IMG/VR virus record: IMGVR_UViG_3300024504_000248
Location: 1 to 46,876 of that record
DNA: 46,876 bases
Source: a virus
Reading direction: 5' to 3' (one strand)
Within the stretch, counting starts at the first letter, position 1. Every line of letters starts with the position of its first letter. The notes beneath the pieces are model-generated. The model did no database searches. It saw only the letters and a list, made by a program, of their open reading frames with translations, and was not told where the DNA came from. Shown here piece by piece: positions 1-37,883 of this stretch. The translations under genes and the position numbers were made by a program.

Positions 1-150
1 GCCGTTGTTGATAATTGTGTTTTTGTTGGAAGTCCAAAGAAATTCATGTTCAACAGGTGACAGGCAACCTAGTGCGGAATGAATACATTTTAGGTTGTAA
101 AAGCACTCGATGAATTCAAAGATTTCCAGGATGGCTTGTTCAACGTCCAA
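1..150 (-). pseudogene. IS3-family transposase, C-terminal fragment
   Basis: Read leftward in the frame complementary to base 1, this stretch is open to the window edge and encodes the segment EQAILEIFEFIECFYN, followed by HSALGCLSPVEHEF. This matches the end of the IS3-family OrfB/integrase catalytic domain, whose hallmark is an aromatic-rich helix and then HSALGYLSPVEFE. Nothing upstream of this segment is present: the frame meets the stop codon of the neighbouring gene at 154-156, so the N-terminal DDE core is missing. It is a truncated insertion-sequence remnant. Its 3' end may lie just outside the window. Confidence 0.75.
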
Positions 151-153
151 ATT

Positions 154-768: not shown

Positions 769-895
769 CGTCTCCTTTGGCGAACGTGTAAAATAAGTGG
801 CTCGGTTGGCCGTGTGAAAGCTTTGAATCTCAGAAAAAATTACCATCGTCCAACTGTTTGGCTGAGGTGATCTTTTTCTGCCATCATTAGGGTTA

Positions 896-1573: not shown

Positions 1574-1645
1574 GATGTTTTCCTTGTGGATTGGTTTTAG
1601 GATAGTACAAGTCTTCTACCACCGAAATACAGTGAACAAATTAAC

Positions 1646-1674
1646 TAAATAATGGAGTGGCATGGGCATGTCAA
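1646..1674 (-). promoter_or_regulatory. sigma70-like promoter, one of two related copies
   Basis: On the minus strand TTGACA (1669-1674) is followed after 17 bases by TATTTA (1646-1651), correctly placed for the gene starting at 1573. The spacer contains CCATGCCAC, which recurs at the same distance from TTGACA in the promoter at 4555-4583. Confidence 0.5.
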
Positions 1675-1833
1675 ATTTAATTGGTCAGATTTGACAAGAT
1701 GCGTTTGAACACCGGTTGAAATCTCATGCTTTACCGCAATTTCCACCATGCTATGCCGCAGCCTTCACAATCTTCACTCGGCGAGCTTAGACCAGCGCTG
1801 GCCTCACTGCAAACGCTGCGAGTTGGCAAATAA

Positions 1834-1972
1834 TACAAGTTCCTTGACCAAGTCGCTCATACCTACCGAGTCAAACATCTGGTTTATCGCAGGGAGCAGT
1901 CCTATGTTGCCTGGGTCAAGCGGGTCAACCTATTTCACAGCAAGCAGCACCCAAAAAAAGGGGCCGACCGTG
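1834..1972 (+). pseudogene. integron-type tyrosine recombinase, N-terminal remnant
   Basis: The frame beginning YKFLDQVAHTYRVKH and continuing HLVYRREQSYVAWVKR, VNLFHSKQHP matches the N-terminal SAM-like core-binding domain of integron/phage integrases, whose usual form is RTEQAYVxWIRRFILFHGKRHP. A TAA stop lies directly before it. The following sequence to 2397 shows no catalytic R-H-R-Y region in any frame that I can recognise. It is a decayed fragment. The rest of the gene-free interval 1574-2397 shows nothing else I can support. Confidence 0.6.
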
Positions 1973-2397
1973 GTTTGGGCGTCCGGATCTCGCTTGCTTC
2001 ATCATCATTACTGCGAGGCAATATAGAAGTTACGAACCACGAAAGAGAACTCGTAGTTGTTGGATGATACTTGTTGGGTTACCAAACGCGCAAAGCATCA
2101 CCTGCCATTCGTCGTCTTGATGCATACCGAAAGGAATACTTGCGGAGTCCACATATCTGGCGCACTATCTCCTAGTCATCGAGGGGTGGCCGCTGATTCT
2201 GGTTTATTTCTACGACTTGCTTTTTGAAGTTGGCTCTCCCACTTGACAAATCTGGAATTTCGCTCGTCCTTCCTTTTGCCCCACTTCGGGTGTTCGATAA
2301 TCGCCGTATTACCGCGCTTAACCATCGAAATGTGGGTGTAGGAGAGCTACATCTAACGCGACTGCAGCAAAAATTAGGAAGCTAAATAACGACAGCT

Positions 2398-2937
2398 TCA
2401 AGGAATTAACTTTCTCGCAGGACGCCCCTGCTCTTCCCGGAGTAGCTCCTGGATGTACCACGACAAAAACTCCCGGTTCCGCTCCACAAACTCAGGATCT
2501 CGCCATGCACTCCCATTGATGGTTCCGCGACACTTGGGAGCCCCACACCGGCACTCGAAAGGTTTGGCCGAGATTTCGGTGGTGTCGTAGTCAAACGTCA
2601 GCTCTTCGCCGGCCAGAATCGCCCGGCGGGCCACCATCACAATCTGTCCTCGGACCCCGACGTTGGCCTCGCACTTGTGGTTGAACAACTCTGCATCGTC
2701 GAACTCGAAAAGGTTCTCCGACCCCAGGTAGTAACCGGGGCACACTGAGACGGTGTGCGTATCGAAGTGGGGGAAGCCCACTGCCAGCCGACCGACCTCC
2801 TCGGCCGTGTACACCTTACCACCCCAGACGGCCACCACCTCGCCGGCGACGAACGCCTCGGCGGCAAAGAGCCCTCGCCCGTCGATGGCGGACCGGGCTA
2901 CCCTACACTTCGGGGAGAGCAGCGAATGTAACCTCAT
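2398..2937 (-). CDS. SET-domain protein (lysine methyltransferase-like)
   Basis: This 179-residue protein has the SET-domain landmarks in order: GRGLFA near 20-25 (N-terminal S-adenosylmethionine-binding part), NHKCEAN at 86-92 (equivalent of the NHSCxPN motif), GEELTFDYDT at about 110-119 with the conserved tyrosine, and a post-SET cysteine cluster C129-x-C131-x4-C136. It should transfer a methyl group from S-adenosylmethionine to a lysine; the target is unknown. The sequence is visibly GC-richer than most of the window. Its start overlaps the stop of the upstream membrane-protein gene by 4 bases, indicating an operon. Confidence 0.85.
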   Translation of the reverse strand: MRLHSLLSPKCRVARSAIDGRGLFAAEAFVAGEVVAVWGGKVYTAEEVGRLAVGFPHFDTHTVSVCPGYYLGSENLFEFDDAELFNHKCEANVGVRGQIVMVARRAILAGEELTFDYDTTEISAKPFECRCGAPKCRGTINGSAWRDPEFVERNREFLSWYIQELLREEQGRPARKLIP

Positions 2938-3344
2938 TGTTGTCTATCCTCGGATGCAAACTCGGCAGCGGCCGGCGGCGGTGGTTCGTCGTGCTTCTCG
3001 CGGCCAAGCTCGAGTAGGATCACGGCGACCGCTGCAAACCCCACGCCGACCCACTCCATCTGGGTAAGCCGACCGCCGAAATAGACCATGTCACACACGA
3101 CCACCAGCACGACGTGGAACACGGTAGACAACACAAAAGCAGCGCTAAACGTTCTACTATCCCACTTCAGGAGCAGGCCGAACAGGATCAGGCTGGCGAG
3201 CCATATGAGGCACGCAAGGACCAGCCACAAGGTATTGTTGGACTTTGCCCATTTGAAAATCCAGATGTCCCCCAGGCCACCAGTCACCCCGATGGCGACA
3301 AGAAGCACGTACACCAACCAAGGGTCTGTCGGATCACTTAGCAC
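2934..3344 (-). CDS. four-helix membrane protein, EamA/SMR-like
   Basis: Four hydrophobic segments are visible: WLVYVLLVAIGVTGG, the following LWLVLACLIWLASLILFGLLL, AAFVLSTVFHVVLVVVC and VGVGFAAVAVILLEL. The size (about 136 residues), topology and glycine-rich first helix resemble half-size EamA/small multidrug resistance transporters, though key transport residues are not certain. I prefer the GTG at 3344 because AGGGAGG lies six bases upstream; an upstream ATG at 3365 adds an Arg-rich leader. It overlaps the SET-domain gene downstream by 4 bases, so both are probably co-translated. Confidence 0.6.
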   Translation of the reverse strand: MLSDPTDPWLVYVLLVAIGVTGGLGDIWIFKWAKSNNTLWLVLACLIWLASLILFGLLLKWDSRTFSAAFVLSTVFHVVLVVVCDMVYFGGRLTQMEWVGVGFAAVAVILLELGREKHDEPPPPAAAEFASEDRQQ

Positions 3345-3473
3345 ACGCCGCCTCCCTCTCCTCACGACAAAGCTCAGCAGCAGCGGGGCCGGGTGAGCTA
3401 GGACCCTAAAAATGCGTCATACCCTTCCGTCTGCCGCATCCCCTAGTTCGAGTAGGCCTCACATCTGTTGCAA

Positions 3474-4496
3474 CTATTTACCAATCCACGGCAAGTACAG
3501 TTCGGCCTTCATCGTGTTTGTGCCTGTGCTCGTGTCGAGTTTCAATTTGTTGAAGCTGAAAAAGTCAATTAATGCGTCCTCATTCTCCTCCAAACCGAGG
3601 AAGTCGAAGAGTTTTTCAATTGAAACGCCCAAAAGCATAGGAGCAAATCTAACATATGTTGCGAAGAGGACTTTGAGCACCGGCTTGTAATTAGCAAACC
3701 CGACATCCATTTTGTCGATGAGATCGTTAGCATCCATTTTGGCGATGCCTTCCAACGTGAAGCTAATAGAGATACCCTTTTTGAAGGCGATTTGACCGTG
3801 AACGCCCGTCAAATTCGGGGGGACCTGAACGCCTTTTAAGGCAGGTATATCTTTCACCGACTCCGGGGATGCAACGAACCAAACCACCTGCTTCTGATCA
3901 ACCTTCGCAATCAACCCCCGGATCACTTCGTTGTTCGGCCCCTTCGACTCTTTGGCATTGTACTTATGGATCAGTGACCTGAGGCAGTCCTCGTCCGAAG
4001 ACATCGCACATAGATCAGGACCAACCACGCACAGGTATTGTGTCTTGGCCTGTCTTCTGGAGCCGATATCGTTTTGTTGAATCGCCAATTCCTCGAACTT
4101 TATGGCACTAATCTCGATGTTGGTTTGTGCCTTCATTAGTCGCGGGAAATGTTCGATGAAAGCCCCGGTGTCCCACTTGCCATACATGAGGATAAGTGGG
4201 GTCAAATCCTTGCCGACAAGCGCGACAATGATGCGGGTCGGGTCCGTGGCAACGTTGAAGCTCAATCGCTTGGCGAACAACTTAGCTATTTCGCTGTGAT
4301 CGAACAGCTTCGTCAAGGCCTTTCCCACTGTGGTGCTTGCGGGCTTGGCCTCCGTGAAGGCTTTCCAGTCGATCGAGAGTATCGCTGCGGTGTCGTCGGG
4401 CAGATGCTTGTCTCCCTCGACTGCCTGCGCGGCCGGCGAACAGCTCACCGCGAGCAGCGTGACCGCTAGTAGGGGAAAGGTGCGAAACTGCAACAT
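3474..4496 (-). CDS. predicted lipoprotein of unknown function
   Basis: The 340-residue product starts MLQFRTFPLLAVTLLAVSC, a signal sequence ending in a lipobox-like LAVSC, so a membrane-anchored lipoprotein is likely. The mature protein has a region LPDDTAAILSIDWKAF and alternating strands and helices; I recognise no enzymatic motif. GGAGG lies upstream of the ATG at 4496. A promoter related to the one at 1646 lies upstream at 4555-4583. It is GC-rich like the SET-domain gene, consistent with resident chromosomal DNA. Confidence 0.65.
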   Translation of the reverse strand: MLQFRTFPLLAVTLLAVSCSPAAQAVEGDKHLPDDTAAILSIDWKAFTEAKPASTTVGKALTKLFDHSEIAKLFAKRLSFNVATDPTRIIVALVGKDLTPLILMYGKWDTGAFIEHFPRLMKAQTNIEISAIKFEELAIQQNDIGSRRQAKTQYLCVVGPDLCAMSSDEDCLRSLIHKYNAKESKGPNNEVIRGLIAKVDQKQVVWFVASPESVKDIPALKGVQVPPNLTGVHGQIAFKKGISISFTLEGIAKMDANDLIDKMDVGFANYKPVLKVLFATYVRFAPMLLGVSIEKLFDFLGLEENEDALIDFFSFNKLKLDTSTGTNTMKAELYLPWIGK

Positions 4497-4554
4497 GGTT
4501 TTCCTCCGCAGTCCAACAGGTATTCAAACTCTGAATTGCGCTAAAATAGATATA

Positions 4555-4583
4555 AACCTAGCTGCGTGGCATGGACTTGTCAA
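4555..4583 (-). promoter_or_regulatory. sigma70-like promoter, second related copy
   Basis: On the minus strand TTGACA (4578-4583) is followed after 17 bases by TAGGTT (4555-4560), upstream of the lipoprotein gene. The spacer has CCATGCCAC in the same register as the promoter at 1646-1674, and similarity continues upstream of the -35 box. The interval 4497-4833 holds no gene I can support. Confidence 0.45.
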
Positions 4584-4780
4584 ATCTAATGTATCCGATT
4601 ATCTGGCAAGATGTGTCGGAATGCCAATCGGTCGTCAAATACCTTGAGCAACGCACGACGAGATGTAATCCAGCTTGGCCTTTTTCCATACACCGAGGCG
4701 GTAATTGCTTTGGTCGTGCACTTGTGAAGTGATTCAGACACTTGTGGTTAGAGGCGACGAACGCACTATCTGACCGCTAA

Positions 4781-4828
4781 AAAAAACACCTGCATCGGCT
4801 AAAGCCATGGCCATGCAAGTGGTTTTTA
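4781..4828 (-). terminator. terminator-like hairpin after the AAA/VWA operon
   Basis: On the minus strand CACTTGCA pairs with TGCAGGTG (one G-U pair) around a loop containing GGCCATGGC. It is followed by a run of T, seen on the plus strand as eight A at about 4781-4788. It lies directly after the last gene of the leftward operon. Confidence 0.5.
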
Positions 4829-4833
4829 GATGG

Positions 4834-5277
4834 TTAACTAATTTCTGCCTTTAACTCGCCAATCAACAGGCTCGCCTCCTTAACAGTTAGTTCGTTGAAA
4901 GAACCAACATTTCGCGCATCTAACAGTGGTTGATAAGGAATCTTACCTTTTCTCAGAAGGCCCTGGATCAAAGCTAATTGCTTTTCAGAAGCCCGCCTTA
5001 TGGAGCCATTCTGGGATGGTTTCTCAACTTGATGGTCCTGGATAGCCGGTATTTTGGCAGGAGTATGGAGCATTTCAGGCTTCACTGCTATTTTGCCAAC
5101 TTCTTCATCAAGGGCATTGCGAGCTAACTCGAAAAGCTTCTGCATGTGCAGCTTGAGCTTTGATGGATCCCCTAGCATCGCCGAATCCACTTCCACTTCA
5201 AGGTTCACATTACCGCCTTTGGAACCATAATGGTTATCAGAAACTTTCCTGCTTAAACCAACATTCAACCTCATCAT
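4834..5277 (-). CDS. accessory-operon protein with annealing/SSB-style C-terminal segment
   Basis: The 147-residue product begins MMRLNVGLSRKVSDNHYGS and has a strand-rich N-terminal region, a linker rich in Pro, Lys and Gln, and a C-terminal segment: SEKQLALIQGLLRK, then SFNELTVKEASLLIGELK. The last pattern (KQ, then LTxxEASxLIxxL) is widespread in phage and plasmid DNA-metabolism proteins, often behind SSB or annealing domains. The start at 5277 has AAAGGCAGG upstream and follows the HTH gene by one base. The exact role is unknown; binding of single-stranded DNA is an inference. Confidence 0.5.
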   Translation of the reverse strand: MMRLNVGLSRKVSDNHYGSKGGNVNLEVEVDSAMLGDPSKLKLHMQKLFELARNALDEEVGKIAVKPEMLHTPAKIPAIQDHQVEKPSQNGSIRRASEKQLALIQGLLRKGKIPYQPLLDARNVGSFNELTVKEASLLIGELKAEIS

Positions 5278-5278
5278 G

Positions 5279-5431
5279 TTAAACCTGCCTTTCTTTTCTG
5301 AGAATTTGAACCAAACACCCATTTGTTCGTGAGAAGACTTTCTTCACCACGATCCTCTTCAGACTGAAACCCATATGCCTCAGCCTTTGGACAGAAATAC
5401 CTAGTTCATCAGCGATCTTTTTAGCTTTCAT
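5279..5431 (-). CDS. small helix-turn-helix protein
   Basis: This 50-residue frame starts ATG behind a near-perfect ribosome site (AAAGGAGG, four bases spacing). The product begins MKAKKIADELGISVQRLRH, a typical helix-turn-helix opening (xxIADELGISxxRL), and ends in a basic tail with RKERQV. It could be a MerR/excisionase-like or translational regulator of its own operon. It sits between the small membrane protein and the 147-residue gene with very short gaps. Confidence 0.65.
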   Translation of the reverse strand: MKAKKIADELGISVQRLRHMGFSLKRIVVKKVFSRTNGCLVQILRKERQV

Positions 5432-5450
5432 AAAGCCTCCTTTCTATGGT

Positions 5451-5606
5451 TCAAATGCGAATGGACCTTTGGTGATAGGCAAACCCTACGAAAACCAGCA
5501 TCACCAGGAAAAACACAAGCCAGGATTCCGTAGCAGCTCCAAAAATGGCTGACAGCAACAAACATCCATTGAAATTTGCCACATTGAGCTTTTGTCGAGC
5601 ACCCAT
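5451..5606 (-). CDS. small two-helix membrane protein
   Basis: This 51-residue frame starts MGARQKLNVANFNGCLLLSA and has two hydrophobic stretches (about 14-25 and 29-44) separated by ATESW, with a basic C-terminus (HQRSIRI). AAGGGAG precedes the ATG. Both ends are likely cytoplasmic by the positive-inside rule. Function unknown. Its place inside an AAA+/VWA operon makes a membrane partner for that pair a reasonable guess. Confidence 0.6.
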   Translation of the reverse strand: MGARQKLNVANFNGCLLLSAIFGAATESWLVFFLVMLVFVGFAYHQRSIRI

Positions 5607-5629
5607 GATCAGACTCCCTTAATAGAGAA

Positions 5630-5655
5630 AGGCCTGCCCCGAAAGAGGCAGGCCT
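5630..5655. repeat. intercistronic hairpin
   Basis: AGGCCTGCC (5630-5638) and GGCAGGCCT (5647-5655) form a perfect nine-pair stem with an eight-base loop, between the 284-residue gene and the small membrane gene. No T run follows on the minus strand, so it is more likely an mRNA-stability or differential-expression element than a full terminator. Confidence 0.6.
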
Positions 5656-5675
5656 GAATTGGGAACCACAAACAA

Positions 5676-6530
5676 TTAGACAGCCATCAAGCTTGCAACC
5701 TTTTCCTTAAGCTTCGCGGAAGCCTCATCCAGCATGGATTGGAGACGGGCTTGTTCCCCGGCAAGGTAACCGGCATAAGTTTCCACCTTGAACCTTGCCT
5801 GCTGGATCTGGGAGGCAGCTTTCTCGAAGCTACTTTCCCTGGTATCTGCCCCAAAGGCTTCAATCATCGAAAGATACTCATTCACCAAGTTGCTAAGACC
5901 ATTTGCGATGGCATCTTTGACGGACCTGTCTCCTTCACGGGTTCCAGAAGGCACCGGAAATCGCAGGATCGTGCATCCAAGGCGAAGCACCAGGCTTTCC
6001 AGCTTGTTCACAAAATCCTGGTGCCTTTGGGCAACAAAGTAACAGCCACCCTGGGGCCTTATTGGGAAGAGTCCTCCATTCTGATCAATGAGCCGGACCA
6101 GGATCCTTCCAATGTCCGCCCCCTTCCTTCTGGAAAGCTCAAGATCCAGCTCCCTCTGAACCGCCTCTTTGAGCTCTTCAATTCCACAGGTTACCCTCCC
6201 AGTATCCTTTGCCACGGTCAGCTTGGCCTCGGTCTGGTAGATGAAGAACTCGGCATCCCTTTTTTCCAAGGTAAACTGAAAACTAATGTTTTCAGCATTC
6301 TCTTCCAGTACCTTGACCAGCCTTTTCTGCCCAAGTGACTTGCAGGCTCTGCGGAAGGCAGACTGGACTGGCAAATCGGGCATTAGGCAGGTAGGTAGCT
6401 CCAGATTTTCCAATAGCTTTACAAGATCCTTGTGACTTACGCAGGCCTTGTTGCAATTCCAAGAGACCACTTCGCCCAGCAATTCCGTTTGTTTAGCGTG
6501 AGCGAGCATATCCCGCATATTCGCGATCAT
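5676..6530 (-). CDS. accessory-operon protein of unknown function
   Basis: The 284-residue protein has no signal peptide or membrane segment. The middle (about 85-215) alternates strands and helices with a Cys in GRVTCGIEEL and a conserved-looking GGCYFVAQRH. The C-terminal third is helical and probably coiled coil, ending ASAKLKEKVASLMAV. I recall similar proteins (DUF6744-like) beside AAA+/VWA gene pairs in phages and plasmids, but I cannot confirm this. AAGGGGG precedes the ATG, and the gene follows the VWA gene by 23 bases. Confidence 0.55.
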   Translation of the reverse strand: MIANMRDMLAHAKQTELLGEVVSWNCNKACVSHKDLVKLLENLELPTCLMPDLPVQSAFRRACKSLGQKRLVKVLEENAENISFQFTLEKRDAEFFIYQTEAKLTVAKDTGRVTCGIEELKEAVQRELDLELSRRKGADIGRILVRLIDQNGGLFPIRPQGGCYFVAQRHQDFVNKLESLVLRLGCTILRFPVPSGTREGDRSVKDAIANGLSNLVNEYLSMIEAFGADTRESSFEKAASQIQQARFKVETYAGYLAGEQARLQSMLDEASAKLKEKVASLMAV

Positions 6531-6553
6531 AGAAAACCCCCTTAGTGAATGGT

Positions 6554-7900
6554 TTAAATAGAAAAGAATTGCTCAGACCCGATCAAAGCCGGACTGAGCA
6601 TTTCAAAAAGATGAACCTTGTCCGAAATGGTTGCCAAGTCACCAGGCTCAGAGCCGATGACCAGGCTGGTTAGCTTAGCTTTTACAGAAGCTTTCCATTC
6701 CAGAAAAGCCTCTGCATGGTTGGTATTTATCCGGAGTTGGGCGTCGGAAATGTAAATCAGGTCGGTCTTTCCTGAAGGTGCACCTATTTGAGCAAAGATG
6801 GCTGGCATTTCGCTGACTGGCAGATCTTGATCAGACCCTCCGCCGATAAATGCCACACTCCAATCCAGGAGTTCCCTGGTTTTGGAACTATCCGGAGGGA
6901 TAGCCAAAAGAGAGTGGCCAGTACCTCCGCTGAAAGAGACAAGCCCACACCAGCGCTTTTGACACCTCGAAAGCCAGGCAAAGGTCAAAGCAATCGCTTT
7001 GGCATGCTCAATTTTGGCCCCGTTCATGCTGCCGGACTCATCAACAACAACCACTACAGGCCCTAAACCTGCTGGATCGTTGCTTTCAAAGTCCCTTAGT
7101 TGAAGCTGGCCTTCTGCAAAGCGCCTTAGGAAGTCCAATTCCAGTTCAGGCAGGGCGATTCTTAGCAATTCCATTGGAAGAATCCGGCTAAGTTCACATC
7201 CCAGGACTACTCCTGTAAAGTGATCCATGCCATTATTTCCAAGGATGTTGTGACAACCCTGGGCCACCTGCTTATAGCAGCCTGCCAGCCTGGCAATCTG
7301 CCTAATGACAGCATTGGCCTGAAAACACCTAAAAAGATTGGCAAGTTCCTTCGAATCCAGCGATCTTCCGGGTTTTCCAGAGCCTAAACCATAAGCATCG
7401 CATGCCTGGTTAAAGTCATTAATTTCCAATTCTGCCTTTTCAGCAGCCCTAGCAACACTGATCATACATTCGATATCCTTAGTTTTGGATTCTGGTAACT
7501 TGATTGGAGACGTCTCCACTTTTCCCTTCAGTGCTTGGAATGCCTCGCAAAAAGCCAGGGTTGCTATTTGAGAAGCGACAACGTTTAGGGCTGTACCCTG
7601 CTTAAGGCCTTGAAAATCAAGGTTTTGAAGCATCTGCTTCATAAAGCCATGCCTTAAAGGATCTGTGGGTGTTTCATGGAACTGCAACTCTGGCAGGAAC
7701 GCCATTCCATGAAGATCAGACACTTCTTCTTTACTCAACGCCATCTGCTGTAGCTTTGGGCTTTCGCTGAGTAAGGTCTCGCCCTGCCGAAGGTCCCAAA
7801 GGTCGAGCTTGAGTTCAGTTGGCTGTTGAATGGGCTCTTTTTGTAAAACTGCTGGTATCTCAGGAGATACCAGCAAGGTCTGCAATCGTTCCTCAGTCAT
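6554..7900 (-). CDS. von Willebrand factor A domain protein (CoxE/ViaA-like)
   Basis: The C-terminal half of this 448-residue protein is a VWA domain. The metal-ion-dependent adhesion site motif DESGS is at 287-291, followed by KIEHAKAIALTFAWLS, the later GLVSFSG, and DLIYISDAQ near 375. The N-terminal 280 residues are helical, as in ViaA/CoxE proteins that work with MoxR-type AAA+ ATPases as Mg-dependent client or insertion factors. The AAA+ gene lies directly upstream, so the pair very likely acts as one chaperone machine. The start is backed by AAGGAGG. Confidence 0.8.
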   Translation of the reverse strand: MTEERLQTLLVSPEIPAVLQKEPIQQPTELKLDLWDLRQGETLLSESPKLQQMALSKEEVSDLHGMAFLPELQFHETPTDPLRHGFMKQMLQNLDFQGLKQGTALNVVASQIATLAFCEAFQALKGKVETSPIKLPESKTKDIECMISVARAAEKAELEINDFNQACDAYGLGSGKPGRSLDSKELANLFRCFQANAVIRQIARLAGCYKQVAQGCHNILGNNGMDHFTGVVLGCELSRILPMELLRIALPELELDFLRRFAEGQLQLRDFESNDPAGLGPVVVVVDESGSMNGAKIEHAKAIALTFAWLSRCQKRWCGLVSFSGGTGHSLLAIPPDSSKTRELLDWSVAFIGGGSDQDLPVSEMPAIFAQIGAPSGKTDLIYISDAQLRINTNHAEAFLEWKASVKAKLTSLVIGSEPGDLATISDKVHLFEMLSPALIGSEQFFSI

Positions 7901-7923
7901 AAAATCCTCCTTGGAAATGAAAA

Positions 7924-7950
7924 AGGCCGCAGGTAACCCCTGCGGCCTTA
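7924..7950. repeat. intercistronic hairpin between AAA+ and VWA genes
   Basis: AAGGCCGCAGG (7924-7934) and CCTGCGGCCTT (7940-7950) make a perfect eleven-pair stem with loop TAACC in the 68-base gap. There is no long T run on the minus strand. It may cap the upstream message and set the AAA+:VWA ratio. Confidence 0.65.
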
Positions 7951-7968
7951 AGAAATGGGTAAGTACAA

Positions 7969-9117
7969 TTAGATGGAATCCAAACTTTTGAGGCGAAGCT
8001 GCTGAATCTGGTTCTTGACGAAGTCTAGAGCCTCTCTGACCCGTTCAGACTTCTTCAAGCTAGAAAGCTTCTTCTGAACCTCAGTCAGCTTGGCGGCTGT
8101 GGTCGCTGCCTGAGCCAGGTCGGCAGGATTACAGCCTTCCAGCACTTCCTGTGCCTCGGAAAGCAACCCCGTTACCTTCATGCCCGTGGGTGAGGCATGC
8201 TTGAGAATGGCACTCTTTACCTTGGCAGGCTCTTTAGTGGGTTCTGTCCAAAGCACATGCTGCAGGACTTCCAAATGCTCTGGAAGTACCTCGCTTGCGC
8301 CCTGAAGCCAGGCATAAGCCCTTACCAAAACCACTGACTTTGCCTGCCTGCGATCCCCAATAACCACGCCCTCCCTGGCTAGGTCTTGAAGAATGTTCTC
8401 CAGGGCATCCATTGCTTCCTTGGACCAATCCAGCCCTTGGGCATCCAGCCTGGCTGCCTCAAGTTCAGGCTTAGCCAGAGAAGTGGACAGCTCCGCCAGG
8501 CTGTTAGCCCAAAGAAGCTTTTGCCTGCCATTCTTCGTTTTAATCGGTTGAACGGTTTTACGTACCAGAAAGCGGTCCAAGAGCGCACCCAAGCTTTTAG
8601 CCTCATCCCCTTGAGGGTAGTCATTGGCCGCTGCCACGCAGAGTTCCAAGGGAACTCTGCGTTGAATACCATCGCCTTTATCAAATGTTCTTTCGTTGAG
8701 AATCTTCAAAAGAATATTCAAAATCGCAGGTGAACCCCGAAATATCTCGTCCAAGAAGCAAAACTGCGCCTCGGGAAGTTTGCCTTGGGTTATCCGTACA
8801 AACCGATCAGACTTCAGCTCCGAAAGGCTGTACATGCCTAAAAGCTCTTCTGGCATCGTAAAGCGGTTTAACAGATATACGAATTTGCTCCCATGCATCC
8901 ATTGCATGAGACTATCAACTAGCAAAGACTTACCCGTACCCGGAGGCCCTACCAGAAGCAGGTGCTCGCTGGCCAGAAGACACGTCAATGCAAGATCGAT
9001 TTCCTCCTGGCGTTCAATAAGCGAATTGGAAAGCTCTTTACGGGTGCTTTGAAACTTGTCCTGGACGGTTAGTGGGTTTTCCTGCTTGATAGGCCTAGAA
9101 GTTAAAACTGCGTTCAT
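7969..9117 (-). CDS. MoxR/RavA-type AAA+ ATPase
   Basis: The 382-residue protein has Walker A GPPGTGKS at 56-63, Walker B FLDEIFRG with D121-E122, the sensor-1 region AAANDYPQG, and a later GDRRQAKS typical of the MoxR lid. This places it in the MoxR family, which remodels proteins or metal centres together with a VWA partner, here encoded immediately downstream. CAGGAGGA lies upstream of the ATG. It is the first gene of the leftward operon. The interval 9118-9536 contains no gene I can support. Confidence 0.85.
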   Translation of the reverse strand: MNAVLTSRPIKQENPLTVQDKFQSTRKELSNSLIERQEEIDLALTCLLASEHLLLVGPPGTGKSLLVDSLMQWMHGSKFVYLLNRFTMPEELLGMYSLSELKSDRFVRITQGKLPEAQFCFLDEIFRGSPAILNILLKILNERTFDKGDGIQRRVPLELCVAAANDYPQGDEAKSLGALLDRFLVRKTVQPIKTKNGRQKLLWANSLAELSTSLAKPELEAARLDAQGLDWSKEAMDALENILQDLAREGVVIGDRRQAKSVVLVRAYAWLQGASEVLPEHLEVLQHVLWTEPTKEPAKVKSAILKHASPTGMKVTGLLSEAQEVLEGCNPADLAQAATTAAKLTEVQKKLSSLKKSERVREALDFVKNQIQQLRLKSLDSI

Positions 9118-9536
9118 AAGATCCTCCTGCCACCATGCATGCCCATGGTTGAAGGCAGCTAAACCATATGGCTTGGCCAGCAGATTATGACGCGGGTTGG
9201 TAGGGAATTAAGTTACCTGAATTATCAATGGGCGGATTTAGGAATTGAACTAAGCGCCAAAGGTATCCATGCTTTACCAGGAAGGTCCCCTCCTAGAAAA
9301 GGCTTGTCGCAATACCGACAAACCTCAATCAGCCTAGCCTTGGCAAGGACTACCCTCCCGGCTTTTCAGGAAAATAGAAACTATAAGCATCTTGATTGCT
9401 GTTGGAAGGCTTGGCCAGGCAAAGTTAAGCTCCAAGAGCTTTGAGTTCAGAAATTCTTGGTCTCCTTTTTGGTCTCCCACCCCTTCCGGTATGTGCGGAA
9501 TATGCTTATTTACAAAGGGTTTCAGCGTATCGAGTT

Positions 9537-9584
9537 CTCTGGTTCCTAAACCGAGGGTCGTAGGTTCGAATCTTACCGGGCGCA
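9537..9584 (+). repeat. 3' half of a tRNA-Arg(CCU)-like gene, probable attachment-site scar
   Basis: The segment contains a loop with CCT flanked by a damaged anticodon stem, a perfect T arm (GTAGG at 9560-9564, loop TTCGAAT, CTTAC at 9572-9576 with one G-U pair) and the acceptor 3' strand CGGGCGC plus discriminator A at 9577-9584. The matching 5' acceptor GCGCCCG, D arm and start are absent to the left. An isolated tRNA 3' half is what integration at a tRNA leaves at the distal end of an element. With the tRNA reading rightward, element DNA would be to the left, or two elements would sit in tandem here. Confidence 0.65.
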
Positions 9585-9680
9585 TATATTCACGGGCCGT
9601 AAAAGCTTGCTGTTATTGAACTTATGCACTTCTTTAAACATTTTGTTTGGAAGTGCATTTTTGCTTGTTTGAGGTGGTTT

Positions 9681-9776: not shown

Positions 9777-9832
9777 ACTTCTTAGAGTAAGTTAAAAAAG
9801 AATATATTCTTTTTTAACTTACTCTAAGAAGT
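9777..9832. repeat. 56-bp perfect palindrome
   Basis: Each base from 9777 to 9804 pairs with its mirror from 9832 back to 9805, with no spacer. The arm starts ACTTCTTAGAGTAAG and the centre is GAATATATTC. It lies between the phased repeats and the terminator at 9850-9881. It could be a cruciform, replication or recombination site, or form a long RNA hairpin if transcribed. Confidence 0.85.
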
Positions 9833-9849
9833 TACTCACACAGACGTAA

Positions 9850-9881
9850 AAAAACCCCGGCTTTTTAGGGCCGGGGTTTTT
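9850..9881. terminator. bidirectional rho-independent terminator
   Basis: AAAAACCCCGGC (9850-9861) and GCCGGGGTTTTT (9870-9881) form a strong stem with T runs on both strands. It serves the leftward ribbon-helix-helix gene that stops at 9894 and would also insulate the phage from rightward transcription. Confidence 0.85.
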
Positions 9882-17446: not shown

Positions 17447-17889
17447 TGCAAATAACTCATTCCATATTTGAACTTCCTGACAGTGGTAAGAGGGAAGAGT
17501 TTTCCACTGGTTCCAGAAGGGACACTAGGGAAGGGAAGGGGAGGTACGACTTGTTACCATGGTGCGCTATTGAAAGAATTGCGAAGCATACAGAAAATGG
17601 TGCGCATAAATATGGTGATAAAAACTGGGAAAAGGGACAACCTGTTTCCAGATACTTTGACAGTGCAGTGAGGCACTTGTCTAAGTGGATCCAGCACAAC
17701 GACACTGAGGACCACCTTGCTGCTGCATGTTGGAACATACTTGCAATCATGTGGACATTGGAAAAGGTGCAAGAAGGAAAACTACCCAGTACTTTAGGAG
17801 ATGATCATGAGCACAGATTTTACTGGGGACAACAATCCCGGAAAGAAGAACAGAATGAGCCAGCACAAGATACTCAAAAAGGAACGTAG
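17446..17889 (+). CDS. dATP/dGTP diphosphohydrolase-like (DUF5664) protein
   Basis: The 147-residue protein carries the pattern KGRYDLLPWCAIERIA, GAHKYGDKNWEKG, RYFDSAVRHLSKW and DHLAAACWNILAI. This is the N-terminal dATP/dGTP diphosphohydrolase family, all-helical and MazG-like, common in phages near polymerases. It would hydrolyse purine dNTPs and so shape the nucleotide pool. The family includes the enzyme that serves base-Z phages, but no PurZ gene is seen here. The ATG overlaps the polymerase stop (TGATG). Confidence 0.65.
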   Translation: MQITHSIFELPDSGKREEFSTGSRRDTREGKGRYDLLPWCAIERIAKHTENGAHKYGDKNWEKGQPVSRYFDSAVRHLSKWIQHNDTEDHLAAACWNILAIMWTLEKVQEGKLPSTLGDDHEHRFYWGQQSRKEEQNEPAQDTQKGT

Positions 17890-18376
17890 GTTACAAGCAA
17901 TCCAACTGCGAAAGCAGGGATTAACTTATGCTGAGATAGGCCGTGTAATGGGAGTTACAAGGCAGGCAGCATACTCTTATGTAGAACGTGAATTTAAGCA
18001 CATTGTGAAAGAGGGTTCCCAAGTTGCAGAGAAGGCACTTTCGCTTACTCTTGCACGCTATGATGAGTTGTTGAAGGCGTACTATCAACAGGCTGTTGGT
18101 GGTGACAGGGAGTCTTTGCAAGACGTACTCAGCATCATGGACAGGCAGGTGAAAATACTTGGTTTGGAGGCTCCCAAGAAGTCTGAAACCAGCATCACAT
18201 ACACCACCATGACGGATGCTGAACTTGTGCACCAAGCTACTATGTGGGGAATCACAATTCCAAATGAAATTGTTTTGGAAAATTCTGAAAACAGTTCACA
18301 GCTAACCTTGTCTGATGATGGCACAAATGATACTGTACAGACATACACTAACCCTAACAGAGAGGAGCAACCATGA
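17807..18376 (+). CDS. HTH protein, candidate small terminase subunit
   Basis: The roughly 189-residue protein has a helix-turn-helix of the type RKQGLTYAEIGRVMGVTR, QAAYSYVER (about 36-62), a long helical middle (AEKALSLTLARYDELLKAYY) and an acidic disordered tail. The layout fits a small terminase or sigma-like HTH regulator. AGGAG sits six bases before the ATG at 17807; a later ATG at 17855 is possible. It overlaps the preceding gene by 83 bases, and the large terminase lies 2.5 kb downstream. Confidence 0.5.
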   Translation: MSTDFTGDNNPGKKNRMSQHKILKKERRLQAIQLRKQGLTYAEIGRVMGVTRQAAYSYVEREFKHIVKEGSQVAEKALSLTLARYDELLKAYYQQAVGGDRESLQDVLSIMDRQVKILGLEAPKKSETSITYTTMTDAELVHQATMWGITIPNEIVLENSENSSQLTLSDDGTNDTVQTYTNPNREEQP

Positions 18377-20904: not shown

Positions 20905-22482
20905 ATGTCAGCAGGTTACACAAGAACAGAACTGGAAAACAAGCTTAAGCAGGCGTATGCAATTGCAGAGCTTGCTAGCGCACGTAGTGTGAAGGGTTAT
21001 CTGGACAGTGTAATTATTGATTCACGCCCTGAGCCCAGAAGATTTGCACACGTTGCACGTGACTGGCAATGGAAACGTGCAGATTACATGATGCAGCCTA
21101 TTGAGGCATTGTGCGGACTGCGACCAGATTACAAGGGACCACGTAACACTTGGGAAACATTACCACGTGGACATGACAAGACAACTGGACTTGCACGCCT
21201 TTGCAACTGGGTACTTGCATTCAGCCGTAAGCCTATTGAAATTGTTGCAGCAGCAGCAGATTTTGACCAAGCTGCACTACTTACTGAATCCATGGCAGCA
21301 GAAGCACGCTTAAACCCTTGGCTTGCAAAACGTATTACGTTTGGAACCAAGCGCATCAAAGGTCCGGGCGGAATCCTTAAGATCCTTACTGCGGATAGTG
21401 CAACATCATTCGGTTTGCGCAGTGATCTTGTTGTATGTGACGAGGTTACACATTGGAAGAAAAGAGACTTGTGGGATACTCTTTGGTCGGGTCGCCAGAA
21501 GCGACCCGGCTCAGTATTTGTTGTAATTACAAACGCAGGTACACTTGGTAGCTGGCAGCACCAAATACTCGAACAGGTAATGGTGGATCCCACTTGGACT
21601 GTGTTTGAAGCACCCGGACAACTTAATTCATGGATGGATGCAGAAGCAATACAGAGAGACCGTGCACTTCTACCAGCAGGTGTTGCAAAAAGAGTACTTG
21701 ATAATGTGTGGATTGACCCTGCTGAAGAGTCTGGGTATTTAACTAGATCAGAAATTGCAATTGGTACTCAACTGGGAGTTGAGAAAAACTTGGTTTACAA
21801 CACTGTCGGTCTGCACGGCACAGAATATGTTGCTTCAGTGGACTACGGGGCCAGAAGAGACCGCACAGCAATGTGTGTGATGCACTTGGATTCTGATGGT
21901 GTGTATGTGCTTGACAGATTAGATATACTTCAGGGAACACCGGGAAATCCAGTGCCAATTGCAAGTGTTGATAGTTGGATTGAGGGAGTTGCAGCAAACT
22001 TTTTCAACCCAAGAATCATCATTGATCCGTGGCAAATGGAAGCCACTGTGCAAAAATATGAGGGGCGTTTAAGAGTCGAAAGATTCGATGGCAGGTCTGG
22101 AAAGAGCAATTATGAGATGGCTGAACTGCTGCGCAGCCTGCTTGTGAATAAAAGACTTGCATGGTATGCAGATCCTGCGCCATTGCAGGTTGGTAGGAAA
22201 CGAGAAACACTTGTGGATGAAATGGCTGCACTCATCATAAAGAGTAGTGGTGCAACATATAGGTTCGACCACACCAATGGCCTGCATGATGATAGAACAG
22301 TTGCAATGGGTATGTGCTTGGTTACACTAGCTGGCCTGCAACACACAGGACCATGGATTAAACCACCTGCTGTAAAACAGCCTGCCCCAACAGATTACAC
22401 CCTGCGCACTCCACAATTCCGAGGTATGTTTGGACTGGGCGCAATGGGTGCAACAACTCCACGTGGGATATTTGGTGGATGA
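20905..22482 (+). CDS. large terminase subunit
   Basis: The 525-residue protein has the ATPase and nuclease order of phage TerL. A deviant Walker A sits in LPRGHDKTT (about 87-95), Walker B is DLVVCDEVTHW (about 172-182), and coupling motif VVITNAGT is near 207-214. The RNase H-like nuclease shows VDYGARRD (about 311), IIIDPWQ (about 371) and HDDRTVAMG (about 460). It should drive DNA packaging into proheads and cut concatemers. Start ATG 20905 lies 69 bases from the divergent leftward gene. A ten-pair hairpin lies inside the gene at 21486-21510. Confidence 0.9.
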   Translation: MSAGYTRTELENKLKQAYAIAELASARSVKGYLDSVIIDSRPEPRRFAHVARDWQWKRADYMMQPIEALCGLRPDYKGPRNTWETLPRGHDKTTGLARLCNWVLAFSRKPIEIVAAAADFDQAALLTESMAAEARLNPWLAKRITFGTKRIKGPGGILKILTADSATSFGLRSDLVVCDEVTHWKKRDLWDTLWSGRQKRPGSVFVVITNAGTLGSWQHQILEQVMVDPTWTVFEAPGQLNSWMDAEAIQRDRALLPAGVAKRVLDNVWIDPAEESGYLTRSEIAIGTQLGVEKNLVYNTVGLHGTEYVASVDYGARRDRTAMCVMHLDSDGVYVLDRLDILQGTPGNPVPIASVDSWIEGVAANFFNPRIIIDPWQMEATVQKYEGRLRVERFDGRSGKSNYEMAELLRSLLVNKRLAWYADPAPLQVGRKRETLVDEMAALIIKSSGATYRFDHTNGLHDDRTVAMGMCLVTLAGLQHTGPWIKPPAVKQPAPTDYTLRTPQFRGMFGLGAMGATTPRGIFGG

Positions 22483-23275
22483 CACCAGCCTGCCTGCAAA
22501 AAGCCTGCATGTGATTGCACATAAGTGCAATAGCCTGCAATAGTTAGAGCAATGTGATGCGCTGTGCGCATAGCCTGCTATGAATAGAAGATGTAGCGCA
22601 CCAAGTGCGCCCCCTGCATGAAGTGCATGATATGCACCACTGCGGTGATAAGGATGTCGCAGGCAATCGCACATACTGCTGTTGTGCTCAGCCTGCTCCG
22701 ATGTTATAACATGCAGGTGCACAGAGTGCACCAACGATTATCATTATAAGAGTGATAATACAACCAGAGTAGCTAAATAAGATTTAGCTATCTAAATAGT
22801 AGCAATATAGCAGGCTAGTACATAACTTAAGATATTGCACCTGCACTTATAGCTAATTATGCTTTGGAAGCAGAAGTAGCAAAATAAGATCTATCTATCA
22901 TATTAGTGCACTAATAACAAGATACAAATATCCGATTTAGCTACCTGCATTGCAGGGATAATGCTGTGCGCATCCTGCGCACCACCTGCTATATTCCTAC
23001 TAATGTTGTGCACTATTCGTGCACCACAGTGTTGTCAAGCTTAGCAGGCAGCAGGCTATTTGCACCCTGCACTGTCCACTATTATTGGCACACGCTTTGC
23101 GCAGGCATCACACAGTGTATATTTGCTACCTGCTATGTGCACTATTCGGAAGTCCTTACACTGCAAGCACTTACGAGTACGGCAAATCGCACATCGGAAA
23201 ATTTGTGCAAAAAGGGGGGGACCCGGAGGGGGGGTCCCACAAAATACACCAGACTAAAATTTTAGAATATTTTCT
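22483..23275. repeat. non-coding region dense in GCCTGC/GCAGGC and perfect inverted repeats
   Basis: No credible gene occupies this interval. GCCTGC occurs at 22488, 22492, 22503, 22533, 22573 and 22691, and its complement GCAGGC at 22659, 22810, 23044, 23051 and 23101. Perfect inverted repeats include 22514-22531, 22557-22571, 22596-22610, 22623-22637, 22701-22712, 22716-22732, 22737-22759, 22770-22790, 22902-22915, 22944-22956 and 22966-22982. Near 23213-23236 a G-rich tract contains GGGACC/GGTCCC arms. It follows the large terminase directly, so a packaging, replication-origin or structured RNA function is plausible. Confidence 0.75.
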
Positions 23276-23563
23276 TCACAATTGGTTCTTATAAATCTTA
23301 TCCAATACTTTACGCACTCTCACAACACCAATGTAACCAATCGCAGTGTTGTAATTAAGGACATAGTCTCCTGCGAAGTGCAATTTATCGCACTCCCCCC
23401 ATGGTGCTTCATCAAAAGAGTATTCTGGGATATCCCAATACCCTTCCTGCCTGAGTTGTTGCAATGTTCTCTCTGCACCCATTGCATCGAGATATTCAAG
23501 CCATTCGTGCGCCTCTTCACCCTGAATGAACATCAGTGTTTCGTACATTTTGTGTTCTCGCAT
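23276..23563 (-). CDS. leftward accessory protein of unknown function
   Basis: A 95-residue acidic protein starting MREHKMYETLMFIQGEEAHE, with an aromatic-rich middle (GYWDIPEYSFDEAPWGE) and a basic tail. AAGGAGG precedes the ATG, which lies inside the preceding gene. Third and last gene of a leftward trio with overlapping ends; no family recognised. Confidence 0.55.
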   Translation of the reverse strand: MREHKMYETLMFIQGEEAHEWLEYLDAMGAERTLQQLRQEGYWDIPEYSFDEAPWGECDKLHFAGDYVLNYNTAIGYIGVVRVRKVLDKIYKNQL

Positions 23564-24143: not shown

Positions 24144-25640
24144 ATGGCAAACGATGCAATAATTCCAGATCCATTCGCACAAACTCCACAAGAGTCAGGG
24201 TACGATTTCCCTGATGCTCAGAAGAAAGAAGGACGTGTTCCGGGTGATGGTGCAATGCCATTACCACACTTCATGACCTTCTCTCAGGTTGTGAACTGGG
24301 CTAGTCGCACATACAGGTACACTTTTGATGAGGCACTGCGACACAGTGCAAAGAACACACTTGCACTAAGGCGTGACCCAGTGGTAATGGAAGCAATTCG
24401 CTCCCGTCAGATGGCCACTGCACAACTACCTTGGCACTTGGAACCTGCAAATCCAGAAGACACTGCGCAGGTTGAGGCAGCAAAACTTCTCACAGACATA
24501 CTCAAGAGCACTCCCAGATTCGAACAGATGTTGATGCACCTGCTTGAGGCTGTTTTCTATGGCCGATATGGTGTGCAGGTGAACTACTCTTGGGATTTTG
24601 CAAACGGTAAAAAGCGCATGGTTGTGAAGGATTTCAAGCCTGTAAACGGGGACAAGATGGTTTTCCGTTACTCAGGGCAGGCTGGAATACTTGTGCACGC
24701 AACATTTCAGGGCGACTTTGCAATTACTGACAGGGGTAGGGCGCACTTCTTTACTCCAGAGGAGAGGGAGCAAATCCTTATCCACAAGCACGAACCTGAG
24801 GATGCTGATTTCTACGAGGGTGAACTTGCAGGTGGTATTCATGGTGTTGGTATACGTTCCAAGATTTACTGGTTGTGGTATTTGCGCAGTCAGGTACTGA
24901 CATTCCTGATGGACTACTTGGAGCGTATTGGTGCAGGTGGACTCACGGTGTACTACTTTGAGGCTGGAAACCCGAACTCACTTGCAGAAGTAAAACAGTG
25001 CGCAGAAGAGCAAATGCGCAACAACACCATTCTTTTCCCAAGGTACAGGGACAACACAACAGGTGGTCCGGGTATCGAGCGCATAGACCCCTCACCAGCA
25101 GGTGCGCAACTTCTGTATGACCTTATTACTGCGTATTTTGACCAGCAAATTCGCAGGTACATACAGGGTGCAGATAATAATGAAATGACAGAGGGTGAAG
25201 CTGCGATCATGGGAGACACGCACTCAAGAATGGTGCGCTATGATGCCATGAATTTGCAGGAAACCATCACACATGATCTGGTAAAGGTGCTCCAAAAGTA
25301 CAATTGCCCCGGTTTACCACAAATCAAGTTTGTGTTTGATATCGACAAACCAAACGCAGTGGAAACACTGCAAGCTGCACAGGCGTTCTACCAGATGGGT
25401 GGAACACTGGATGAGGATGAATTAAGGGCTGTTCTAGGCTTATCAAGACCACAACCCGGTCATGCGATACTTGCACAGAATATGCCACTTAACCCGTCTT
25501 TAATGGGGAGTCAGCCGACTGGTGTGCCAATAGTAGGGCAACCGGGGCCTGCACAACAAGGTGCAGAAGCGACTACACAAAGTACCCCTACACCAGACGG
25601 GGCGCAGGGCGGGGGCTCAATGCCCCCCGCCACTGCGTAA
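24144..25640 (+). CDS. portal protein, DUF935/Mu gp29-like
   Basis: The 498-residue protein has the features of DUF935-type portals: ALRRDPVVMEAIRSRQMA near the start, LLEAVFYGRYGVQVNYSWD, HKHEPEDADFYEGELAGG, then LDYLERIG-like helices and QQIRRYIQGADN. The C-terminus is Gly/Pro/Gln-rich and disordered. It should form the dodecameric channel through which the terminase packs DNA. The gene end contains a strong hairpin (25608-25631). It opens the head module after a leftward gene cluster. Confidence 0.75.
   Translation: MANDAIIPDPFAQTPQESGYDFPDAQKKEGRVPGDGAMPLPHFMTFSQVVNWASRTYRYTFDEALRHSAKNTLALRRDPVVMEAIRSRQMATAQLPWHLEPANPEDTAQVEAAKLLTDILKSTPRFEQMLMHLLEAVFYGRYGVQVNYSWDFANGKKRMVVKDFKPVNGDKMVFRYSGQAGILVHATFQGDFAITDRGRAHFFTPEEREQILIHKHEPEDADFYEGELAGGIHGVGIRSKIYWLWYLRSQVLTFLMDYLERIGAGGLTVYYFEAGNPNSLAEVKQCAEEQMRNNTILFPRYRDNTTGGPGIERIDPSPAGAQLLYDLITAYFDQQIRRYIQGADNNEMTEGEAAIMGDTHSRMVRYDAMNLQETITHDLVKVLQKYNCPGLPQIKFVFDIDKPNAVETLQAAQAFYQMGGTLDEDELRAVLGLSRPQPGHAILAQNMPLNPSLMGSQPTGVPIVGQPGPAQQGAEATTQSTPTPDGAQGGGSMPPATA
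25608..25631 (+). repeat. GC hairpin at the end of the portal gene
   Basis: GGCGGGGGC (25608-25616) and GCCCCCCGCC (25622-25631) form a near-perfect stem with loop TCAAT, seven bases before the stop codon. No T run follows; it may protect or partially end the upstream message. Confidence 0.6.
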
Positions 25641-35205: not shown

Positions 35206-37338
35206 ATGCCAAGAACTCCATCAGCAAATGAGTATTTTGCTGATTTTAAGATTGCACGTACCCGCCTAGAAAACATGGCAGTTAAAGCTGGCATGAATAA
35301 GGATACTGTTGCAAATCTTAGCATGTCTGACATTTTAAAAAGCCCTAGATTTACTAACGAGCAGAGAGAAGAGTTTTTAACTTCTCAGGAAATAGGTGGA
35401 CATTTAAGCAAAGATTTAATGTCCACCACAAAAAACCCGGAAATTGCTCAAAAGGTAATGATGTCTAGGTTGGATAAAGGGGATGCTCTTAGGAAAAAGC
35501 TTGAATCTTTACCACCTGAAGTAAGGAAGGAGGCAGAAAAGTCATTTCAACTTGAGCGTGAAACCATGGATAACGATGGTTTCCAATATAGGAGGGGTGA
35601 AAAAAATTGGTATGGTAGAACTACTCGTGGTTCTGATGCGGATAGAGAAGACTATTTTCTAAATCGAGCACAATCTATTGTCGCAGATGCCGAAAAGACT
35701 GCAAAAGATGTAGCTGGGGAAAAAGACCCTGTAAAAAAGAAAGAGTTAGCTGAAAAAATATACTCTCAAAGACAAGCATCTTTTACTGATGCAAATAGCG
35801 ATAGAAATGATGCAGATGCTGAGCTTAAAAGAGCTAATATAGGTCTTGCAATGGATGTTGGACTAACAGCAGCAACTGCTGTTGTGCCCGGAGGAGTTGC
35901 ATTACGATTTGTTGCCGGAGGTGTTGGTAAGGGTACTCAAGCACTCAGGGCAATGGGTAGAGTAGCCTATGAGGGTGTAAAACATGGAAGTAAAAAGTTT
36001 GTAGCTACTGAGGGGGTTAAGCTTGGGACACATGCTTTGGATGACACCCTTGCAAAAATAGACGGAGTTCCCCAATTCGCTAGAAATGCAGTTAGTGCTG
36101 TTGCTGGTTATTCAAAAGCATATGCAGAAAATTTATACGGGGATGTTCATACACATAAGCTTTTTAGCGGGGATGTGGGTGGATTCGTATGGAGCTTAGG
36201 CAACAAACAAATGGCAGCAAATGCTCTAGGTATTGCTCTTCCCTTTGCAAAAGGTTCTCCAAAAAATCTAACCGGTGCGTCTAAAAAAGCCATCGAAGCA
36301 AAGCAACAAGTGCAGAGAAGAGCTAACAAAATAGTTGATAAAGGGGAAGAGGCTTTTCAAAACTCTGCAATGCTAGGAAATGCTGCGGATGCTCTAGATA
36401 GTGGGCACGAGGTTTACACATCTGTTGCCAACTATGACCTTAAATACAAGCAGGCTCGTGCAGAAATAGCAGGTAGGAAAGAAAATCAAAACCTTTCCTC
36501 CGAGCAAATAGATAGATTAGCCAAACAAAGAGTTGTTAGGGACATTGGGTACAATACCGGAAACACTAAAAATGCTGCAACTGATGTTGCAGGTGGGATT
36601 AAAGATTATAAATCTCAAAGCGCAAGGAGTTCTAAAAACGCTAACGAGGTTAGCTCTAAAACTGAGCAAATTGAAACTAATGCTAAACAGGATGCTAAAG
36701 AACAAATTGAAAATGATGCTGAAACTCCCTCAGAGCAATTACTTTTTGATACATACATGGAGAAAGTAAAAAAACCTGATATTACTCCAGAGCAAAAAGC
36801 AGAGGCTACTAAAGAGTATAAATCTCAGACTAATGCACGTAGTTCCAAAATTCAGGAAATAGCTCAACAAAAAACTCAAGAAAAAATTCAAGATATAAAA
36901 GATACTCAAGAGCACAGAGATATTCGACATGATCAAATAGATACTTTTAGGCACATTCGTGGCGAAGAAAGCAAAGCCCCTAGAAGTACTCTACGTGAAC
37001 CACGTGAGACTACTGAACCACATGAACCACATGAACCACATGAACCACGTGCAGAACCACATGAACCACGTGCAGAACCACATGAACCACGTGAGACTAC
37101 TGAACCCAAAGAAACTAAAGAACCTAAAGAACCAAGAGAAAACAGAGAACCTCACATACCAAGAGTGCCAACAGGGGAAAGGCACGATAATACTCCACCT
37201 TTACCACCAGTAGGTGGGAATAGTGGGGGTGGTGGCACTTTTGCAAGTTCTGTGGGAAGCGGGTTCCCAATGCAAACCGCACCGTCTTACTCGTATGTAA
37301 ACATTCAATTGCCCTACTTCAGCGAGTTAGGACTGTAA
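35206..37338 (+). CDS. large virion protein with charged repeat tail
   Basis: The 710-residue protein has a helical charged N-terminus, a Gly/Ala-rich hydrophobic segment (about 212-250, VVPGGVALRFVAGGVGKG) that could insert in a membrane, a long helical region with many Asn/Glu/Lys, and a repeat segment near 597-640 (tandem EPHEPH, EPRAEP, EPKETKE). It ends in Gly/Pro. It might be a tape-measure-like or internal ejection protein; the length and position allow either. The following gene starts inside its stop. Confidence 0.55.
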   Translation: MPRTPSANEYFADFKIARTRLENMAVKAGMNKDTVANLSMSDILKSPRFTNEQREEFLTSQEIGGHLSKDLMSTTKNPEIAQKVMMSRLDKGDALRKKLESLPPEVRKEAEKSFQLERETMDNDGFQYRRGEKNWYGRTTRGSDADREDYFLNRAQSIVADAEKTAKDVAGEKDPVKKKELAEKIYSQRQASFTDANSDRNDADAELKRANIGLAMDVGLTAATAVVPGGVALRFVAGGVGKGTQALRAMGRVAYEGVKHGSKKFVATEGVKLGTHALDDTLAKIDGVPQFARNAVSAVAGYSKAYAENLYGDVHTHKLFSGDVGGFVWSLGNKQMAANALGIALPFAKGSPKNLTGASKKAIEAKQQVQRRANKIVDKGEEAFQNSAMLGNAADALDSGHEVYTSVANYDLKYKQARAEIAGRKENQNLSSEQIDRLAKQRVVRDIGYNTGNTKNAATDVAGGIKDYKSQSARSSKNANEVSSKTEQIETNAKQDAKEQIENDAETPSEQLLFDTYMEKVKKPDITPEQKAEATKEYKSQTNARSSKIQEIAQQKTQEKIQDIKDTQEHRDIRHDQIDTFRHIRGEESKAPRSTLREPRETTEPHEPHEPHEPRAEPHEPRAEPHEPRETTEPKETKEPKEPRENREPHIPRVPTGERHDNTPPLPPVGGNSGGGGTFASSVGSGFPMQTAPSYSYVNIQLPYFSELGL
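36997..37107 (+). repeat. tandem GAACCACAT/GAACCACGTGCA repeats
   Basis: Nine-base units GAACCACAT and longer units ending GAACCACGTGCA are repeated in the region, flanked by two copies of a 23-base direct repeat starting GAACCACGTGAGACTACT (36997 and 37085). It encodes the Glu-Pro-His/Arg repeats. Confidence 0.7.
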
Positions 37339-37883
37339 TGGCATTAATAAAGAGCAACACGGGTAACATACTCACTGCGATCAAGACATTGCTAGTGAAC
37401 GAACTTGCAGTGGGATCCCACAAGGTTCTGCTGGTTGCAAAAACAATTATTCCCAATTTCACAGGTGATCAGGACTTCATTATCAGACCGGGTTCCCCCA
37501 CACCAGAAGATGGATTTGTGCAGGGTAGTGGAAGGCTTGCATCTGTCGTGCAAAGGCAGATGTATGTGGCAATTCGCACAAGGTTTGGTGTGGATGTTTC
37601 CAACAGTGACGAGAGGTGGTTGCTAGATCCTACCTTAGGACACCTCGCAAGGGAGGAGCAGGTTATAAACCTGCTCCACCTTCGAAGGCTCAAGGATTCA
37701 TCTGGTAATGATCTTCTGATTGAACCAATGCGCATGACACAACCCATACAAGACTTTGTGGGACACTCTCAGGATGGTTACACAAGGGGTGGTGACGAGA
37801 AGGATGCGCAAAAGCAATACGGTATTTCCATCCTTGCTTTCGAATGCAGGTACATGCTGGGGGTGACAAACGATGGCTACTAA
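37338..37883 (+). CDS. tail/neck completion protein
   Basis: A 181-residue protein starting MALIKSNTGNILTAIKTLLV, with a basic N-terminal helix, strands (HKVLLVAKTIIPNFTG, RQMYVAIRTRFGVDV) and a Gly-rich, acidic end. Its layout resembles small tail-terminator or neck proteins. It starts within the stop of the 710-residue gene and overlaps the next gene by 11 bases. A ten-pair perfect hairpin with a three-base loop lies at 37655-37677. Confidence 0.5.
   Translation: MALIKSNTGNILTAIKTLLVNELAVGSHKVLLVAKTIIPNFTGDQDFIIRPGSPTPEDGFVQGSGRLASVVQRQMYVAIRTRFGVDVSNSDERWLLDPTLGHLAREEQVINLLHLRRLKDSSGNDLLIEPMRMTQPIQDFVGHSQDGYTRGGDEKDAQKQYGISILAFECRYMLGVTNDGY

Follow-up and report, generated by a model that had tools for sequence, protein, structure and literature searches.

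A conserved one-orientation module beside a variable hairpin array behind the large terminase gene of an uncultured phage clade: a possible packaging or genome-end region

In phage lambda the cos site is located before terS, and cos usually adjoins this gene. The T7 genome, whose genes run one way, has its end downstream of terL, near short repeats and inverted repeats, and ColE1-type origins consist of a structured stretch followed by G-runs. Lambda cos measures about 200 bp, and its 120-bp cosB contains three TerS sites (PMC4669245). GOLLD and ROOL are structured RNAs of several hundred nucleotides found in phages and prophages (PMC12286853). The locus analysed here belongs to the viral record IMGVR_UViG_3300024504_000248 of IMG/VR, positions 1 to 46,876 (the window). 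With lambda-like cos (cosQ-cosN-cosB) it shares short, ordered, single-copy sites near the terminase genes and repeated candidate TerS sites, but its module is found downstream of terL rather than directly upstream of terS, is combined with G-runs and a long hairpin array, and has no sequence in common with cos. The position behind terL, the co-directional genome and the short and inverted repeats near the putative end are reminiscent of a T7-type terminal repeat or concatemer junction, but this phage has an integrase and shows no T7-like sequence match. A long structured stretch followed by G-runs also resembles a ColE1-type R-loop origin, to which it has no sequence relation. Ornate phage RNAs, such as GOLLD and ROOL, are likewise long structured stretches of several hundred nucleotides, but the island has no Rfam match at either the gathering or the relaxed threshold, and a tRNA search revealed nothing in it; the window as a whole lacks a tRNA gene array.

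The island is a non-coding stretch between terL and a small convergent gene. The original prediction placed it after the large terminase and stated that no credible gene covers it; terL does end one nucleotide before the island, and a PHROG search gave no match for any island ORF, on which a coding reading was rejected. The features of the region are as follows.

17801–18376, plus strand: probable terS with a helix-turn-helix (PHROG 309 and 645, Pfam HTH_23)
20905–22482, plus strand: terL, large terminase subunit (PHROG 9, E 7.6e-28; PHROG 2; Pfam TerL_ATPase), adjoining the island upstream
22483–23213, no strand: repeat and hairpin island, non-coding, without gene or Rfam match, with 10 perfect hairpins, at a position homologous in relatives
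22488–23106, both strands: 11 copies of GCCTGC/GCAGGC, 6 on plus (22488–22696) and 5 on minus (22659–23106)
22514–23024, no strand: ten perfect hairpins, e.g. 22514–22531, 22557–22571, 22596–22610, 22716–22732, and further 22770–22790, 22966–22982 and 23008–23024
23008–23017, plus strand: GTGCACTATT, first copy of GTSCACTATT; second copy 23074–23083, third 23137–23146
23174–23183, plus strand: CGAGTACGGC, at the same spot in relatives whose contigs extend there
23214–23234, plus strand: double G-run GGGGGGGACCCGGAGGGGGGG, 39 nt past the start of GAGTACGG, clade-specific
23218–23238, minus strand: 7-bp hairpin with a C-rich loop over the G-runs, then CCCCTTTTTG
23276–23563, minus strand: small convergent gene, phrog_23219 (E 4.5e-8), function unknown
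24144–25640, plus strand: portal gene (Pfam Portal_Mu, E 3.7e-39), first gene back on the plus strand

Eleven copies of GCCTGC/GCAGGC were recounted in 22483–23275, the same number as first reported for some 620 bases, and the reported prominence of TGCAC/GTGCA corresponds to 21 copies in the island versus 3.6 expected from the rest of the window. Hexamer density is 15 per kb in the island against 0.59 per kb in the rest of the window, the total for the whole window being 38 versus 24.7 ± 5.1 in shuffles. In the first of two checks attached to the original prediction, the rest of the genome proved free of such a density of hexamers or hairpins. The cluster begins within the last 350 nt of terL (22136, 22280, 22334 and 22380) and is therefore not limited to non-coding DNA. 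Eleven copies of any hexamer are reached by no other 731-nt stretch of the window; since one such stretch inside a 710-aa ORF (35206–37338) contains 10 copies of GAACCA, clustering of a hexamer alone is not unique to the island. Perfect hairpins with a stem of at least 6 and a loop of 3–8 number 10, versus 1.8 ± 1.1 (maximum 4) in island shuffles; all four inverted repeats named originally are among them, but the total is 10 rather than the claimed eleven. Folding stability exceeds that of island shuffles, with z −7.3 and −6.2 for the two strands, as expected from the inverted repeats. Three-nucleotide loops, present in 6 of the 10 hairpins, were the reason to consider N4-type hairpin promoters; the longest ORF on the list for the window, 1298 aa, is far smaller than the N4 virion RNA polymerase.

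Search with TerL gave 22 viral contigs, comprising some identical ones, a group of about 83% identity and another of about 76%. Relatives (terL 76–83% identical) continuing past terL have a non-coding stretch at the same place, 290–760 nt long where the contig reaches the G-runs. The island is a real non-coding stretch conserved in position, and homologous islands do exist downstream of related terminases, the second check of the original prediction. Islands of the 83% group show enrichment of GCCTGC (8–12 per kb versus 0.5), while the hexamer is absent genome-wide from the 76% lineage, with 0 copies versus 23 expected in G017 (51 kb), 10 in G016 and 9.3 in G018. This hexamer and the window's own hairpins are lineage-dependent and do not represent the constant part. 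As the 76% lineage lacks the hexamer despite a TerS helix-turn-helix nearly identical across the lineages sharing the module, GCCTGC is unlikely to be a conserved TerS site, although genome-wide avoidance in that lineage makes this rejection not decisive. Palindromes such as CTGCAG and CAGCTG are missing alongside GCAGGC/GCCTGC in the same genomes (L037–L039 of G017, L049 of G016, L047–L048 of G018); avoidance of a non-palindromic hexamer would fit a defence by restriction or methylation, and in the remaining lineages different asymmetric hexamers (GGCACC, CCTGTA, ATCAGG) are avoided. A repeated hairpin, CACCAAAssCTAT-n4-ATAGGkGTTT, is common to the 83% group and the 76% lineage; it always has one orientation, was confined to this clade when viral contigs were scanned, and has no copy in the window.

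What remains constant across lineages is an ordered module at the islands' 3′ ends, always in one orientation: GTSCACTATT, then CGAGTACGG, then the double G-run. The spacing from GTSCACTATT to GAGTACGG is 34–71 nt among islands, and that from the GAGTACGG start to the double G-run is 36–41 nt in relatives. In the 9 genomes or contigs searched GTSCACTATT was found only in islands and only in plus orientation; the L019/L121 lineage has GTAGACTATTA in its place. No GAGTACGGC was registered outside islands in the genomes tested, where the shorter GAGTACGG has 0–2 further occurrences elsewhere; G014 carries the variant GAGTACGGT. A pattern scan of viral contigs with the GAGTACGG/G-run part gave matches in this clade only. 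After the second G-run most relatives have TACC and the window TCCC, and the hairpin over the G-runs is imperfect or absent in some relatives. The module is found at one place per genome, a feature of cos and pac sites.

Beyond the clade, comparison of the window terminase with 50,697 phage records gave no match at E 1e-5, and solved terminase structures gave none either. Among records with known ends, the matches of terL (E 8e-4, Mycobacterium phages) and of the portal were weak and too remote to transfer the type of end. Among 294 genomes from the phylum that includes a Planctomycetaceae MAG, 22 carry TerL relatives (L129–L140, phylum of L102), and the host may be a planctomycete, this being the only phylum searched. 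Distant TerL relatives in Planctomycetota have no such double G-run near terL in the loci examined, and an exact pattern search of 392 genomes gave no match. A description of such an element was not found in the literature.

Two relatives, G003 and G014, have closed circular assemblies of about 49.4–49.5 kb, each with a 127-nt contig-end overlap, at different places. Almost all their genes have one direction, and the stretch from the island to the portal gene is the main break. Contig ends cluster here: eight lie no more than 80 nt from the G-runs, and in metagenome 3300021601 one contig stops in the T-run before them, while another begins at the second G-run. In a polA-selected contig sample only 1 of 14 right ends falls at this site, so the cluster of ends is partly a result of selection. 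These ends fit physical ends, but also sequencing trouble or assembly breaks at G-runs.

Our preferred reading, given a probability of about 0.4, is that the island may be a packaging or genome-end region, composed of a cos/pac-like module and a structured accessory array. It is suggested by the single-site, directional and conserved module at the break of gene direction, the adjoining terminase genes and the near identity of the TerS helix-turn-helix. Module order, near-constant spacing and the essential confinement of GTSCACTATT and GAGTACGGC to this site speak for it; the lack of a nick site with clear two-fold symmetry, the distance of 3.6–5.7 kb between terS and the module, and two circular assemblies that read through the G-run site speak against. 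In this temperate tailed phage the island would be used for packaging recognition or concatemer processing: GTSCACTATT copies might serve as TerS sites through which the terminase recognises the module, CGAGTACGG and the G-runs as the region where it would cut the concatemer and start packaging, and the neighbouring hairpin and repeat array as an accessory landing or structural element, with drifting sequence and preserved foldedness. Of the options offered by the original prediction pac/cos is the best, with a folded RNA and an operator array as less likely candidates, but its support comes from the 3′ module rather than from the GCCTGC array; the label of an undescribed element is fair, but the weight put on GCCTGC is not justified. 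The clade thereby obtains a candidate packaging or genome-end signal with exact motifs and spacings and, if this reading is true, a cos/pac-like module behind terL, not before terS, beside a fast-changing hairpin array.

A possible but doubtful alternative is that the plus strand of the island is transcribed into a long non-coding RNA with structure, or into a structured 3′ UTR belonging to the terS-terL transcript, in either case ending near the G-runs. Its strong folding would be in line with this, but the z-scores are alike on both strands. Also in favour is a hairpin of the 83% group (alignment columns 333–355), where the loop is constant and the stem differs, with both sides changed yet paired, in three lineages; the consensus fold has 17 double-change pairs on the plus strand versus 11 on the minus strand, and the CACCAAA hairpin keeps a single orientation and arms with the same one-base asymmetry throughout. 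The alifold covariation term is small, however, and with one good three-lineage hairpin, few sequences and about three independent lineages the covariation is suggestive only. The hairpins of the window have no alignable counterpart in relatives, and the empty Rfam search also counts against an RNA; if true, this would be a large phage RNA outside Rfam. We consider it improbable that a strand-specific multi-hairpin array of RNA (or single-stranded DNA) and the G-run module jointly mark the genome end, so that the terminase or primer recognition would use folded nucleic acid beyond the duplex sequence.

A replication origin appears unlikely, more so than an RNA. The repeats could be initiator sites, or the G-runs could fix a primer RNA in the manner of an R-loop origin, and the repeat array with AT-rich stretches, together with the phage's own polymerase and primase-helicase, would suit this role. 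Cumulative GC skew turns near the island-to-portal stretch in G014, G009 and G002, but skew follows gene direction, which confounds it as an origin signal, and in G017 the minimum is elsewhere; replication genes are 4–10 kb distant and no initiator was assigned. Still less probable is that the island acts only as a bidirectional transcription terminator or insulator, with repeats that built up without any additional role. The flanking genes do converge, the G-run box of the window is a terminator-like hairpin on the minus strand, and L011 has a good plus-strand terminator (CGCCG-AGTA-CGGCG, then a T-run). But the window region has 2 terminator-like sites versus 1.5 by chance, only some lineages possess an intrinsic terminator (G+C-rich stem with a T-run), CGAGTACGG and the G-runs are retained where no good terminator forms, and neither 290–760 nt nor the GTSCACTATT motif is needed for one.

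Several other places of the window deserve mention. The 3′ half of a tRNA-like sequence (GGTCGTAGGTTCGAATCTTACCGGGCGCA) is located at 9536–9585, a possible attachment site; a whole tRNA was not found. The identical phage G002 ends in a tyrosine integrase, and relatives have their integrase at the matching place. Positions 1–9117 contain minus-strand genes (bpMoxR ATPase, vWA-like domain, DUF6744, SET domain) absent from related phage genomes, and may be either cargo or host DNA flanking a prophage. In G217 a gene related to the vWA one is separated by only a few kb from a terL relative, and from this neighbourhood the gene may be phage-borne. A 26-bp perfect inverted repeat (9777–9832) is followed by a strong terminator-like hairpin (9850–9881). 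The GAACCA repeats extend over 36500–37700, mostly inside the 710-aa ORF, which probably encodes a repetitive tail or fibre protein.
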